Source of the DNA: Thomasclavelia sp.
GTDB lineage: Bacteria; Bacillota_I; Bacilli_A; Erysipelotrichales; Coprobacillaceae
Assembly: GCA_028749475.1 (NCBI GenBank)
Contig: JAQVWN010000017.1
Coordinates: 1 to 36,810 of the forward strand
Length of the DNA stretch: 36,810 nt
Reading direction: 5' to 3'
Shown here: positions 14,058 through 20,135 of the stretch, one piece after another
Layout: each line of letters starts with the position of its first letter
Numbering within the stretch: the stretch's first letter is position 1
Translations under genes and position numbers: made by a program
Notes under the pieces: generated by a model
Told to the model about the DNA's origin: nothing
What the model saw: the letters and a program-made list of their open reading frames with translations, nothing else
Databases searched by the model: none

Positions 14058-15523
<1,466 letters not shown>

Positions 15524-16423
15524 TTATAAATATTGTTTTAAGAATTCATCTAGAGTCTTTTTATAATCATCATCCTCAAGTAATTCAAACAAATATTTTT
15601 CATCTTTTAATATAAATAAAGTCTTTGGTCCACGGTTATTGTTGTAAAGTTGATAAACCATCTTTAATGGAACAAAATCATCTGTTTTAGTATGAACATA
15701 TAATGTTGGTATATCATTATGACGAACTTTATCAATAGTACTATTTTTAAGGTTGATCTTAATTGCTTTTTTAACTTTAGCACTAACAATTGGCATAACT
15801 GGAATTGTTGGCATGTAGTAATCTTTGGTTACTCGATAACCTAAAATATCATATGGTGATGTATATGCTCCATCAGAGATAATACAAGACACATTCTTAA
15901 GTAAATGTTTACCACTAGCGTTTAAGATTGTATTAGCACCACATTCTTTACCAAACATGATTATTTTTTGATCTTCACCAAAAGTCTTTAAAATATAATC
16001 ATTCCATTTTACTAAATCATCTACATCTTTTATTCCAAATCCTCTAATATATCCATCACTTTGACCATGAGCACATGAATCAATAAGTAGAAAATTAGAA
16101 TCAGGCAATTTTTCTTTTAAGAATGGGACATATAAAGACATATCTTTACAATCTAAAGCAAAAGGATGAGTTACAAGAACAGTTGATTTTGCCCCTTCTT
16201 TTTCAAGAAGAACTCCATGAAGATTTACCCCTTGAGTATTTTTAATATAAACATCTTTACCTTGATATTTACTTTCTAGAATACTTGGACGATCATCTTC
16301 TTTATGATGTCGATACATCAATGCTGTAGATGTTTTATTTGCGAACGCTACAGTTGCTCCTGCTGCTGATGCAACTGCTGCCACACCAGCAAGTCCAATT
16401 AGTTTTTTACTATTATTTTTCAT
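15524..16423 (-). CDS. Membrane-anchored alpha/beta-hydrolase-fold protein, catalytic residues missing
   Basis: This is a 299-residue protein with an N-terminal membrane anchor (about 8-29, rich in Ala/Gly/Val). An alpha/beta-hydrolase fold follows, resembling the anchored Bacillus YqkD type: VLVTHPFALDCKD oxyanion strand, DSCAHGQSDG, nucleophile-elbow strand IIMFGKECGAN, and TKTDDFVP acid loop. The elbow reads GKECG (158-162), so the position normally held by Ser is E160. No His follows H244, so the catalytic His is also absent; D248/D249 remain. The fold seems kept but ordinary esterase chemistry should not work. Its start overlaps the preceding stop as TAATG. A divergent enzyme or a binding/scaffold protein are both possible. 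Confidence 0.75.
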   Translation of the reverse strand: MKNNSKKLIGLAGVAAVASAAGATVAFANKTSTALMYRHHKEDDRPSILESKYQGKDVYIKNTQGVNLHGVLLEKEGAKSTVLVTHPFALDCKDMSLYVPFLKEKLPDSNFLLIDSCAHGQSDGYIRGFGIKDVDDLVKWNDYILKTFGEDQKIIMFGKECGANTILNASGKHLLKNVSCIISDGAYTSPYDILGYRVTKDYYMPTIPVMPIVSAKVKKAIKINLKNSTIDKVRHNDIPTLYVHTKTDDFVPLKMVYQLYNNNRGPKTLFILKDEKYLFELLEDDDYKKTLDEFLKQYL

Positions 16424-17625
16424 TATTTATAGCCTCCAAAATTTTCCATTAATAATCTATTTATATTTGCAACTTGTTCAAATGAAGATAATCGGTATTC
16501 TTCATTATCCATTCTAGCTGCATAAAACTTTATAGCCACTTCTAATTCTTCTTTAATAATAGGAAGATACTTTTTAGGGAATGTGTCTATTTGAAAACAA
16601 ACAAATACAAAAGTATTATAATCTTGTTTAAATAATTCAATTAATAAATCATATCCTTCATTATGAATAATGCTATTTCCAATAGCTAGTTCTAAGTCAT
16701 GATTAGCAAATGTTAGTATGTCTAACATTACTCTTCTTATAACATCAAGGTTGGCTTCTCTAAAGGCATCCTTATCACTCAAAAACACTGCTTTTAAATA
16801 AGGAAGAACAATATTATTTTCATTATTTTCTTCAACTTTTTCCTCACAGTATTTTAATAATTCTTTAAGGATCTTTGGCCTTGACATAACTAAAGTTCCA
16901 AAGTCAGTCATAATCGCAAAAGTAAATCTTTCAAATCTTACAATTCGATAACATGTCAGCATCAATTCATCTTTAGTTTCTTTATAAAAGCTATCAATAT
17001 TATCATAGACCATTCTAATTATCTTTCTAAAATTATATAAATGATATTGATATTGAGTATCCAGGAACTTTGTATTAGTTCCTTCCCATTCATATTCATA
17101 TAAAATTTTATCTAAAAGAAGTTCAATGGAAACCATAAATTTATGATAACTTTTCATTTTTAGAAGTAATTGTAAATAAGGAATAAAAAAGTCATAGAAT
17201 GAGTCTACTGCTTCTTGATTAGTTCCTCGATGATACTCTAAATAATCTAGGATATTACGATAGTCCACTGGTTCTAATGGTTGCCCTCTTGTTGGATGAG
17301 ATTCAATATAATATTCAAAGATGTGACAATGAAGTATTGAAGGATATTCATTTACATCAATAATCTTTTGCAAGGCATCTTTAATAATATATTCTTCTTC
17401 TTGTTCGTGAAGACTAACAGAGAAATTATATTCTATTTCATCATGAGAATAATCTAAGGTTAGAAAAACATTAATTTCTCTAAATTGTGAATCTAAAATA
17501 TAATATCTAAATTTATGTTCATATTTTTTTGTCTGGACCATTGAATGGCATCGATACTTTCCAATGTATTGACTTTTATGTTTGTCTAAATAATCATTTA
17601 TGCATGGTCTTATCAACGTCATCAC
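16423..17625 (-). CDS. Unrecognised 400-residue protein coupled to the hydrolase-like gene
   Basis: I do not recognise a family. The first part (about 20-95) looks like a small alpha/beta domain with alternating strands rich in Tyr and Phe. From about residue 115 it is helical, with long amphipathic stretches, many Glu/Lys/Tyr and no glycine-rich loops. There is no signal peptide, membrane segment, cysteine cluster or nucleotide-binding motif. It is the first gene of the four-gene unit and its stop overlaps the start of the hydrolase-like gene. AGAGGTG sits immediately before ATGATG, so initiation may be at 17625, at 17622 or at a TTG just inside. Codon use looks like that of its neighbours, arguing for a real native gene. 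Confidence 0.8.
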   Translation of the reverse strand: MMTLIRPCINDYLDKHKSQYIGKYRCHSMVQTKKYEHKFRYYILDSQFREINVFLTLDYSHDEIEYNFSVSLHEQEEEYIIKDALQKIIDVNEYPSILHCHIFEYYIESHPTRGQPLEPVDYRNILDYLEYHRGTNQEAVDSFYDFFIPYLQLLLKMKSYHKFMVSIELLLDKILYEYEWEGTNTKFLDTQYQYHLYNFRKIIRMVYDNIDSFYKETKDELMLTCYRIVRFERFTFAIMTDFGTLVMSRPKILKELLKYCEEKVEENNENNIVLPYLKAVFLSDKDAFREANLDVIRRVMLDILTFANHDLELAIGNSIIHNEGYDLLIELFKQDYNTFVFVCFQIDTFPKKYLPIIKEELEVAIKFYAARMDNEEYRLSSFEQVANINRLLMENFGGYK

Positions 17626-17709: not shown

Positions 17710-17741
17710 TAAAAATAAAACAATCTATGATTGTTTTATTT
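17710..17741 (-). terminator. Terminator of the ecf-truA-PHP operon, overlapping the stop codon
   Basis: A perfect 13-base-pair stem (AAATAAAACAATC with GATTGTTTTATTT, 17713-17725 and 17729-17741) with a three-base loop. On the minus strand it is followed by a mostly U stretch. The stop codon of the PHP gene (17736-17738) lies in the upstream arm. Confidence 0.75.
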
Positions 17742-18617
17742 ATTTCCTTTTTTGTATTTGATTTCATCAACCAAATTCAAATTATATTTTTTAATATAGT
17801 TTAATAATACTCGATAATCAGTATCATTAAAATCTTTAGGATTATGAGCATCTATACCGATGATTACTTTATTTTGATAATTTCCAGCTAGTCTGAACAT
17901 AATATGTGAAGTATAAGGATAAGTAATCATTCCTTCTTTATTCCTTACACCTCTTCTAATACCTCCAGCATTAAGTTCTAAGGGAACATCATATTCTAAA
18001 GATAATTTACATATTTTATCCATGGCTTGAATACAATAATCATCTATTTTGTCTCTTCCTAGTAGAAATAAATCAGGATGAGCTAAATAGCTAAATAAAT
18101 GCGTTCTAAAGGCGTTATGAATATCTTCGACATAATCGTCTATTTCTTTGTTTGAAAGGCCCTCATGGCCATAGTATTTGTTTGCTAGATTACATTTATC
18201 GAAATGATTACCTAGAATTAAATAATCCACTTCATTAGTATCTAAGAGATGTTGAAAATAAGGAAGATATTCTTCAAAGTACTCACATTCATAACCTTGA
18301 TAGATATCAATTTTATTTTTATATTTTTCTTTTAGTTCTTTCACCTTGTCTTCATGATCGTTTTTTGTTTTATAAGGCATTCTCATATTAGGACCATCAC
18401 AAATAAATTGATGGGTTGCTGTCACAAAAGAATGAGGATCTAAAAAAGTTTTTGGTAAATTCTTTAAAATATGTTTTCGATACTTAGGATATGGTACATG
18501 TTCAGAGAAACCAAGAATATCATATTCTTTATTAATGGCTGCTCTAACCATATCTTCTTCATTTCCAATTGCGTGCCCGCATCGATATGTATGGGTATGA
18601 TAATTAGTCTTCTTCAT
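17736..18617 (-). CDS. PHP-family histidinol-phosphatase-like metal phosphatase
   Basis: This 293-residue protein is a complete PHP domain, with the metal ligands in the usual order: HTHTYRCGH (H7, H9, H15), GFSEH (E39/H40), GYECE (E110), LGNHF (H138), AHPD (H180) and GIDAH (D256, H258). The closest characterised relatives are HisK/HisJ-type histidinol phosphatases, which release phosphate from histidinol phosphate. No other histidine gene is here, so the real substrate could be another phosphomonoester. It overlaps truA by 14 bases with SD GAGGTAA, and closes the ECF-truA operon in place of the rplM-rpsI pair found after truA in Bacillus. Confidence 0.88.
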   Translation of the reverse strand: MKKTNYHTHTYRCGHAIGNEEDMVRAAINKEYDILGFSEHVPYPKYRKHILKNLPKTFLDPHSFVTATHQFICDGPNMRMPYKTKNDHEDKVKELKEKYKNKIDIYQGYECEYFEEYLPYFQHLLDTNEVDYLILGNHFDKCNLANKYYGHEGLSNKEIDDYVEDIHNAFRTHLFSYLAHPDLFLLGRDKIDDYCIQAMDKICKLSLEYDVPLELNAGGIRRGVRNKEGMITYPYTSHIMFRLAGNYQNKVIIGIDAHNPKDFNDTDYRVLLNYIKKYNLNLVDEIKYKKGNK

Positions 18618-19338
18618 AACTTACCTCATAAAGATATAAGCCTTGTGGCTTAGCTTTAAATAAACATTTTTCTTTGCCTTTACTGTCTAATAGTTGTTTT
18701 AAATACTCTTTAGTTTTTCTTTTTTGCCCGACTTGAATTAAAGCTCCTACTATATGTCGAACCATATATCTCCTAAAGCCATTGCCAACCAATGAAAAGA
18801 TAATAACACCGTTTTCTTCTTCAATATCTATTGAATAAATATTTCTTATGGTATTACCATATTCATCATGAGCACAATAAGATGCAAAATCATATTCTCC
18901 TATAAAGATCTTAGCAGCATCTTTCATTGAGTCAATATCTAATTTTCTTCCAAATTGAAATATATGATTGGTATCTAATGGGTTGTATTCTTTAGTATTT
19001 AAAAAATAACGATATTCTTTTTTAGTAGCACAGTATCTTGAATGAAATTCATCTGAAACTTCTTCACAACTTTTAATATAAATATCATTTGGTAGAAAAT
19101 GATTAATGGCTCTTTTCCATTGTTCAATTGGAAGGTTCTTTGAAGTATCAAAATGAAATACTTGATTTAAGGCATGAACTTTTCGGTCTGTTCGACCAGA
19201 ACCATGAATAATTATATTTTCACCAGTTATATTTTTAAGTGCTTTTTGAATTTCTCCTTGTGTAGTACGAAATTCTTTTTGAACCTGCCAACCATGAAAG
19301 TTTGTTCCATCATAACTACATATACATTTTATTCTCAT
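18604..19338 (-). CDS. truA: tRNA pseudouridine(38-40) synthase TruA
   Basis: TruA makes pseudouridine at positions 38-40 of the anticodon arm. At 244 residues it has the normal length. Motifs are YDGTNFHGWQ at the N terminus, the catalytic Asp D51 in GSGRTDRKVHA, FHSRY, and GNGFRRYMVRHIVG near the C terminus. The catalytic loop is usually GRTDxGVHA; here the Gly is Lys, a small oddity. Its start overlaps the ecfT stop as ATGA, and its 3' end overlaps the phosphatase gene. Confidence 0.96.
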   Translation of the reverse strand: MRIKCICSYDGTNFHGWQVQKEFRTTQGEIQKALKNITGENIIIHGSGRTDRKVHALNQVFHFDTSKNLPIEQWKRAINHFLPNDIYIKSCEEVSDEFHSRYCATKKEYRYFLNTKEYNPLDTNHIFQFGRKLDIDSMKDAAKIFIGEYDFASYCAHDEYGNTIRNIYSIDIEEENGVIIFSLVGNGFRRYMVRHIVGALIQVGQKRKTKEYLKQLLDSKGKEKCLFKAKPQGLYLYEVSYEED

Positions 19339-20135
19339 ATTACAAAACTCATTACAATTACTCCAACACTAAATATCAAAGTAACACCTAAACACATAGT
19401 ATCCGTATTATTCCATGATAATGTTTGATATCTAGTTCTTGTTGCAGATGGATTGTAATTACGACTTTCCATAGCGTTAGCTAATTCTTCTGCTCTTTCA
19501 AAGGCTGATATGAATAACGGAATTATTAAAGATATAATTGATTTAATTTTTTCCATTATACTACCTTCACTAAAGTCTACTCCTCGACTTGCTTGAGCTT
19601 TCATTATTCTTTTTGTTTCATCTAATAAATCTGGGATAAATCTAAGAGCAATACTAATCATCATTGCTAGTTCATGAACAGGGAACTTAAATCTTTTCAA
19701 GGGATTTAAAAGTGACTCAATAGCTAGCGTCATTTCTAATGGTTTAGTAGATGATGTAATTATTGTAGTAAGAGTGATGATTAAAACTAATCTAATAGCA
19801 ATATAGGCAGATTGTCTTAAAGCTCCAGAGTAGATTTTAAACCCATTAATATTACATACTACACTACCTGTATTGATTAAAAAGATATTAAAGAACATTA
19901 AAAACAACATCATAAAAATCATTGGTTTGATTGCTTTTAGAATCTGTTTAAGTGATATTTTTGAAAGAAGTGCACATATTAAAACATACACTGCTAAAAC
20001 TCCATATCCAATAAATCCAGCATCAAAGAATACAGCCACTAAAAATATTAATAAAGTTACAATCTTTAAACGAGGATCAAGGCGATGAATTAATGAATTG
20101 GTAGGAATGTATTTTCCAAATGTCATATTATCCAT
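19335..20135 (-). CDS. ecfT: ECF transporter transmembrane component EcfT
   Basis: EcfT is the membrane scaffold that joins two ATPases to exchangeable substrate-binding S components for vitamins and metals. The 266-residue protein has several membrane helices (about 25-60, 70-90, 110-130, 198-212, 245-265). The two Arg-containing coupling motifs are QASRG (181-185) and AMESRNY (221-227, usually AMEARGY). An AGGAGG site lies eight bases before the start, and the gene overlaps ecfA2 by eight bases. It ends in TGA within ATGA, evidence that TGA is a stop in this organism. Confidence 0.95.
   Translation of the reverse strand: MDNMTFGKYIPTNSLIHRLDPRLKIVTLLIFLVAVFFDAGFIGYGVLAVYVLICALLSKISLKQILKAIKPMIFMMLFLMFFNIFLINTGSVVCNINGFKIYSGALRQSAYIAIRLVLIITLTTIITSSTKPLEMTLAIESLLNPLKRFKFPVHELAMMISIALRFIPDLLDETKRIMKAQASRGVDFSEGSIMEKIKSIISLIIPLFISAFERAEELANAMESRNYNPSATRTRYQTLSWNNTDTMCLGVTLIFSVGVIVMSFVI

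Follow-up and report, generated by a model that had tools for sequence, protein, structure and literature searches.

In alpha/beta-hydrolases, the nucleophile, the histidine and the acid of the triad each have a catalytic role, and the question raised by the locus described here is what a protein does that has kept the fold and lost much of this machinery. The protein, P0001, is encoded on the reverse strand by an open frame at 15524..16423 of the window, i.e., the whole stretch of 36,810 nucleotides that was analysed. In the initial annotation it was suggested to be a pseudo-enzyme, a binding or sensory protein, or an enzyme with new chemistry based on Glu160 and Cys161. These possibilities are weighed below against a predicted structure, orthologues and canonical relatives, and the genes that accompany it.

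Predicted fold and active-site residues

The frame codes for 299 residues, and the alpha/beta-hydrolase fold predicted for them is complete. The model (pLDDT 85.7, pTM 0.85), for which 25 aligned family members served as input, has the central sheet and the nucleophile-elbow topology, in agreement with the preserved fold claimed at the outset. Its top match among solved structures is the Pyrococcus furiosus esterase Pf2001 (PDB code 5g59), which superposes with a Z score of 26.1 and an rmsd of 2.7 for 260 residues at 18% identity. The same esterase was returned when solved structures were searched with the single sequence, along with what were mostly chance matches. Against the Pfam model Abhydrolase_1 (PF00561), the window protein scores 25.5 bits versus a gathering cut-off of 25.8, and 14 of the 25 aligned family members match this model at E 0.01.

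The nucleophile elbow (15938..15952, reverse strand) is encoded by the codons GGT AAA GAA TGT GGT, read from 15952 to 15938, and comprises residues 158–162, GKECG. Glu160 replaces the serine, and the codons are clean, as originally described. Alignment with canonical sequences puts the pair His86-Pro87 (16163..16168, reverse strand) at the canonical His-Gly of the oxyanion loop; this loop had been considered retained, which holds for His86 and fails for the glycine, now Pro87. The acid-loop region is kept as stated, with Asp248 (15680..15682, reverse strand) as the acid of the former triad. At the site of the catalytic histidine, the alignment places Lys276-Tyr277 (15593..15598, reverse strand), and the final 55 residues are indeed free of histidine, His244 lying just ahead of them. 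Among the features of catalytic alpha/beta-hydrolases, the window protein is missing a Ser, Cys or Asp nucleophile, the HG oxyanion pair and the His after strand 8; the acid after strand 7 is present.

A hydrophobic segment close to the N-terminus (residues 8–26; 16346..16402, reverse strand) is a possible membrane anchor. It is rich in Ala and Gly, with a mean Kyte-Doolittle value of 1.92 versus a median of 1.50 for 30 family rows, and in the model a helix extends over residues 6–35, with low pLDDT for residues 1–18. The anchor had been listed among the retained elements; the segment is there, but being only moderately hydrophobic it is no more than an anchor candidate, and charge and Cys counts favoured neither orientation for it.

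Loss of the nucleophile across the family

The bacterial family was sampled through 43 genomes, which belong to Coprobacillaceae and kin as judged by the names of matched records; these include Faecalibacillus, Thomasclavelia, Massilimicrobiota, Longibaculum, Candidatus Stoquefichus and Sharpea. NCBI assigns Faecalibacillus and Sharpea to Coprobacillaceae and Massilimicrobiota to Erysipelotrichaceae, all within Erysipelotrichales. At the genus level, the search set was the window's own genome only. A scan of genome contigs with the single protein gave no match, and a scan based on an alignment then gave 29 named loci. Some homologue is present in all 43 family genomes, and the profile scores fall into two groups. 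An orthologue was found in 41 genomes (profile E 1.3e-72 or better), the best listed match beyond the family having E 2.5e-52. The remaining two genomes, G008 (69% complete) and G018, have canonical-type matches only.

None of the 41 orthologues has the nucleophile Ser. The position is Glu in 19, Gly in 21 and Asn in one, as read from 33 orthologue rows (Glu 15, Gly 17, Asn 1) and from a separate alignment of eight more (Glu 4, Gly 4). The GKECG motif as such is not conserved among orthologues; what is conserved is the absence of the serine. Cys161 occurs in the window protein alone. Orthologues with a normal GxSxG and a His would have pointed to local decay: as for the nucleophile there are none, and as for the histidine the picture is mixed, since 14 of the 18 Gly/Asn rows have His where the catalytic one belongs, versus 0 of the 15 Glu rows. 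The acid position is Asp in 28 of 33 orthologue rows. In the 31 pseudo-hydrolase rows that reach the oxyanion Gly site, the residue is Pro in 16, Gly in seven, Ala in four, Arg in two and Glu in two; among the 39 canonical rows, which include one duplicate, 95% have Gly.

At the His loop, 13 of the 15 Glu rows have Lys, Arg or His followed by Tyr, whereas the 15 Gly/Asn rows are gapped at this point. Glu at position 160 and the basic residue at 276 vary together in these alignments, which fits a salt bridge, but the pattern also follows the clades.

The canonical control consisted of 36 loci chosen by score from many matches and spread over genera, together with L002 and the matches in G018 and G008; removal of one duplicate of the G008 match leaves 38 distinct homologues. 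Read as an outgroup, these show Ser, Asp and His without exception. L002 is a paralogue in the window's own genome, with its triad intact. One canonical sequence, L172 (G260), which has a long branch among the canonical rows, combines an intact triad with an HP-type oxyanion loop (HPLGMD, compared with HPFALD in the window protein).

Single origin and ancestral state

In the tree, which has 68 rows, a branch with SH-aLRT 100 separates the 30 pseudo-hydrolase rows from all others, and this branch survives removal of the elbow, acid and His columns. The trees are quick ones without bootstrap and with some long branches, and the incomplete pseudo-hydrolase rows L054, L061 and L062 and the duplicate L177 were dropped from them. 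Nucleophile states require four changes across the whole tree, three of these inside the pseudo-hydrolase rows. Glu is found in the window's subclade, in the early-branching L045 and also in L060, and Gly in most of the second subclade. The simplest reading of these states is perhaps a Glu ancestor with Gly arising later, the long rows making the order uncertain.

Selection and family-specific sites

The pseudo-hydrolase is under purifying selection despite the missing nucleophile. Nine species pairs gave dN/dS of 0.022–0.158, similar to the range for the partner gene described below (0.030–0.122, nine pairs) and for a neighbouring PHP-domain gene (0.081–0.187, eight pairs); several dS values exceed 1 and are rough. 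A pair of GH1 glycosidase genes (L048/L066; 30% identity, omega 0.69) was excluded as non-equivalent copies.

These results bear on the proposal that the gene is decaying, or is a pseudogene, in the window's genome only. Such decay would explain the missing triad, and damaged copies do occur: those in G001 and G022 are broken, and the copy in G021 is split between contigs. But the serine is lost throughout the lineage, omega is low and the window frame is intact, and we reject local decay as hardly credible. At one locus (L189; G001:C1:756402-758531, a single-contig genome), the partner frame is in two pieces and the pseudo-hydrolase frame has no start, due to either decay or a sequencing error.

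Canonical sites that are at least 85% conserved in the 39 canonical rows and altered in the pseudo-hydrolase family are the oxyanion Gly at 87, position 108, Arg at 117, Ser160, positions 174 and 186, and Gly245. The family has its own conserved sites, namely Tyr37, Asn62, Thr81, Asp123, Tyr125, Arg127, Asn141, Gly149, Asn164, Ile166, Leu175, Ser183, Gly185, Ala186, Phe270, Lys273 and Tyr279, the last being Phe in the window protein itself. Residues 55–299 contain 16 of these sites, and ten of them fall in loops past the C-terminal ends of the strands, on the active-site face, which comprise 79 of 245 positions (hypergeometric p 0.01); because these loops were drawn after the sites had been seen, the enrichment is suggestive only. 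For the lost canonical sites, enrichment at the active-site loops is not significant (4/7, p 0.15).

A different Ser/His pair in the site had been named as a finding that would speak against a dead active site. The only Ser and His that are invariant in the 25 family rows are Ser122 and His86. Both are equally invariant in the canonical rows, so on the alignments a new pair is rejected.

A conserved partner gene

Directly upstream of the pseudo-hydrolase lies a gene for a protein of ~400 residues without known family (16423..17625, reverse strand). In the window, its stop and the start of the pseudo-hydrolase have one base in common (TAATG). In the other intact loci measured, the distance from the partner stop to the longest-frame start of the pseudo-hydrolase is between -20 and +15 bases. 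The two genes adjoin in 40 of 41 orthologue genomes, a count made up of 32 of 33 loci read in sequence and eight others by coordinates; the exception is G021, where contig ends separate the pair. The partner is present in 42 of the 43 family genomes (missing in G008 and broken in G001) and at E 0.001 gave no match in 272 other genomes of the order. When 395 genomes were drawn from the whole class, it was matched in 17 family genomes and in two genomes outside (G607, E 1.2e-4, and G612, E 4.8e-6), where weak, partial matches lie within frames of ~870 residues elsewhere in the class.

The partner matches no Pfam family at E 0.001 and no NCBIfam family at 0.1. Weaker Pfam matches are scattered, the best of them (E 0.0062) found in one of 20 members, and a sequence search of solved structures gave no match. 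The model of the partner (pLDDT 89.5) has four N-terminal strands followed mainly by helices. Its fold has no confident match; the best Foldseek hit has E 0.13, and the best VIA score (Z 8.0, rmsd 7.3) is usual for helical repeats, which does not amount to proof of a new fold.

Distance matrices of the partner and the pseudo-hydrolase correlate with r 0.84, and with a partial r of 0.70 given the PHP protein, for 25 of 33 loci. The values for the pairs that involve the PHP protein are 0.42 and 0.12. Eight loci were omitted, namely those with no called PHP gene, those that are themselves incomplete, and L055 with its overlong PHP frame, and L054 and L063 were omitted from the partner tree. Since genes of one operon have a common history, a correlation of this kind is weak evidence for contact. 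Counting against the function proposed below, G018 has retained a partner that evolves fast, with the longest partner branch (2.01), and no pseudo-hydrolase was found in its assembly. The G018 partner (L173:532-1710) adjoins an apparent ABC transporter ATPase gene, with no pseudo-hydrolase beside it.

Neighbouring genes

The conserved neighbour upstream of the partner encodes a HisJ-like PHP-domain protein (17736..18617, reverse strand; PF02811, 6.9e-13), and its cluster is represented in 29 of 36 stretches examined. In the window, only 110 bases separate the PHP gene from the partner. At three loci (L188:902-1162, L173:2046-2315 and L189:3039-3362), a small gene for about 87–108 residues is found just upstream of the partner.

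A GH1 glycosidase gene (14060..15508, reverse strand; PF00232, 3.6e-168) begins 15 bases downstream of the pseudo-hydrolase. Two motifs, which we take to be those holding the catalytic Glu residues, are both present in the window GH1. Of the 33 pseudo-hydrolase loci, 19 have a GH1 as the next downstream gene (18 of these genes belong to the GH1 cluster, and the other is a 961-residue frame that starts like GH1); the remaining 14 do not. The 961-residue frame (L066:6412-9294, G032) has twice the usual length and may represent two GH1 units fused in tandem. Genus g11 has a shortened GH1, of 343 residues at L046:7944-8972 (G019), which is one of the 19 loci, and of 304 residues at L188:3281-4192 (G020), a separate stretch. 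Both catalytic-Glu motifs are lost in L046; in L188 they are altered, with Glu still alignable at each. As judged by these motifs, the g11 GH1 is possibly a second dead enzyme in the operon.

In the window's subclade, the module lies behind apparent truA and ecfT-ecfA genes (window 18604-20135 and upstream). The frames that precede these resemble rpsM-rpsK-rpoA-rplQ by length and order. The second subclade has the same order of PHP, partner and hydrolase in different surroundings.

Proposed function and alternatives

The combination by which a pseudoenzyme is recognized is found here: the fold is kept, the nucleophile is lost in all orthologues read, and the gene is under selection. Together with the single clade formed by the 30 serine-free rows in the tree, this favours the pseudo-enzyme or binding protein put forward in the initial annotation, the function itself being a matter of proposal. 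As the relatives too are without the key residue and nevertheless keep the protein and its neighbour gene, a binding or scaffold protein is more probable here than an enzyme. We consider it probable, if by no means certain, that the protein is non-catalytic and works as a scaffold or adaptor subunit, tethered to the membrane and bound to the ~400-residue partner. A binding role best explains the observations because the nucleophile is gone throughout, most rows have also lost the oxyanion Gly and the window's subclade the His, the fold and gene are constrained, and the gene is coupled to one partner.

According to this proposal, the protein would already have been a pseudoenzyme in the common ancestor of most of the family (Coprobacillaceae and kin), having arisen from a YqkD-like serine hydrolase. 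The label YqkD-like is taken over from the initial annotation and is provisional. Replacement would have affected the nucleophile, in most cases the oxyanion Gly, and the His in the subclade of the window, and the fold, the acid Asp and most scaffold residues would have stayed. We infer from this a loss of catalysis. The N-terminal helix may tether the pseudo-hydrolase to the membrane, where it would form a stable complex with the co-translated partner and act as its adaptor or scaffold subunit. The remodelled face of the former active site could then be an interface, or a pocket for a ligand that is not hydrolysed. Since Asp is mostly kept and His is present in most Gly/Asn rows, some chemistry may be possible in the Gly/Asn subclade, as far as the alignments indicate.

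The face of the former active site can also be read in terms of a sensor or receptor of the GID1 type, in which the pocket binds a small molecule without cutting it, perhaps a glycoside or a lipid connected with the neighbouring GH1, and passes a signal on through the partner. The acid Asp in 28 of 33 rows, the post hoc enrichment of family-specific sites in the loops of the active-site face, and the GH1 as next gene in 19 of 33 loci are all in line with such a sensor, and an excerpt of PMC3531792 provides a precedent in that the GID1 receptor is thought to stem from loss of the His. However, the former oxyanion and nucleophile residues differ between the subclades, which is unusual for one conserved ligand, and in 14 loci GH1 does not come next. 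We therefore regard a sensor as rather unlikely.

Different chemistry, with Glu160 as nucleophile or acid together with Asp248 and Lys, Arg or His at 276, would make sense of the basic residue and Tyr that accompany Glu in 13 of 15 rows and give way to a gap in 15 Gly/Asn rows. A bacterial cluster of alpha/beta-hydrolases in which Asp replaces the Ser, described in part of PMC11878206, shows that a substitution of this kind has a parallel. Position 160 is Gly or Asn in 22 of the 41 orthologues, though, the oxyanion Gly is lost, and the covariation of Glu with a basic residue tracks clades and suits a salt bridge equally well. Because Glu is not conserved and the Glu rows are without a His base, catalysis by Glu160 is very unlikely, and chemistry at Cys161, unique to the window protein, is rejected.

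Beyond the scaffold or adaptor role that we prefer for the protein, we tentatively suggest, as possible rather than probable, a family-specific non-enzymatic complex of gut bacteria, present in nearly every member. It would consist of a membrane-tethered dead hydrolase and a co-translated partner without recognised relatives, and GH1, with its catalytic motifs degraded in one genus, would often join them as a third component. In that case, folds that once belonged to enzymes would have been taken over for structural or sensory parts of a cell-envelope or signalling module as yet undescribed.

Comparison with known systems

A search of titles and abstracts of open PMC papers returned no literature on this family. 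The fold of the window protein is common to the YqkD-like/Abhydrolase_1/Hydrolase_4 serine hydrolases, represented by L002 and Pf2001 (5g59), and His86, Gly120, Ser122, Gly124, Gly130, Gly158, Gly162 and Pro239 are conserved in canonical hydrolases and the pseudo-hydrolase family alike. Unlike the canonical hydrolases, the window protein has no nucleophile Ser and no His, an altered oxyanion Gly, and a set of conserved residues of its own. The family offers a clean bacterial example of a probable conversion of an enzyme to a non-enzyme deep in a family, and genomes are plentiful both with and without the change. The intact-triad paralogue in the window's genome is a natural control, and because the partner is fixed, the new function can be tested directly. 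If these gut-bacterial proteins were named "alpha/beta hydrolase" after their fold alone, function prediction would be led astray.

Several families provide parallels. Human NDRG2 and NDRG3, as described in an excerpt of PMC7022630, have the full alpha/beta-hydrolase fold, in which non-reactive residues stand in for the triad. The NDRG proteins are human, whereas the window protein comes from a bacterium, may have a membrane anchor and is paired with a constant operon partner; the likeness considered is that of the fold. Among bacterial families, passages of PMC11878206 describe DUF3530 (PF12048) as having the fold without the triad and a conserved neighbourhood, and DUF687 (PF05095) as a proposed inactive scaffolding membrane protein with the same fold. 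The 25 aligned family members match five Pfam families (E up to 0.01), and neither DUF3530 nor DUF687 is one of them. In eukaryotes, the enzyme fold has turned into an adhesion protein in the neuroligins (part of PMC5943944) and into the gibberellin receptor GID1 (part of PMC3531792), in both cases after loss of the triad; GID1 keeps Ser and Asp, whereas the window family has lost the Ser. Non-enzymatic alpha/beta-hydrolases are an accepted kind of protein, and we assign the window family to this kind, as a member of no named family.
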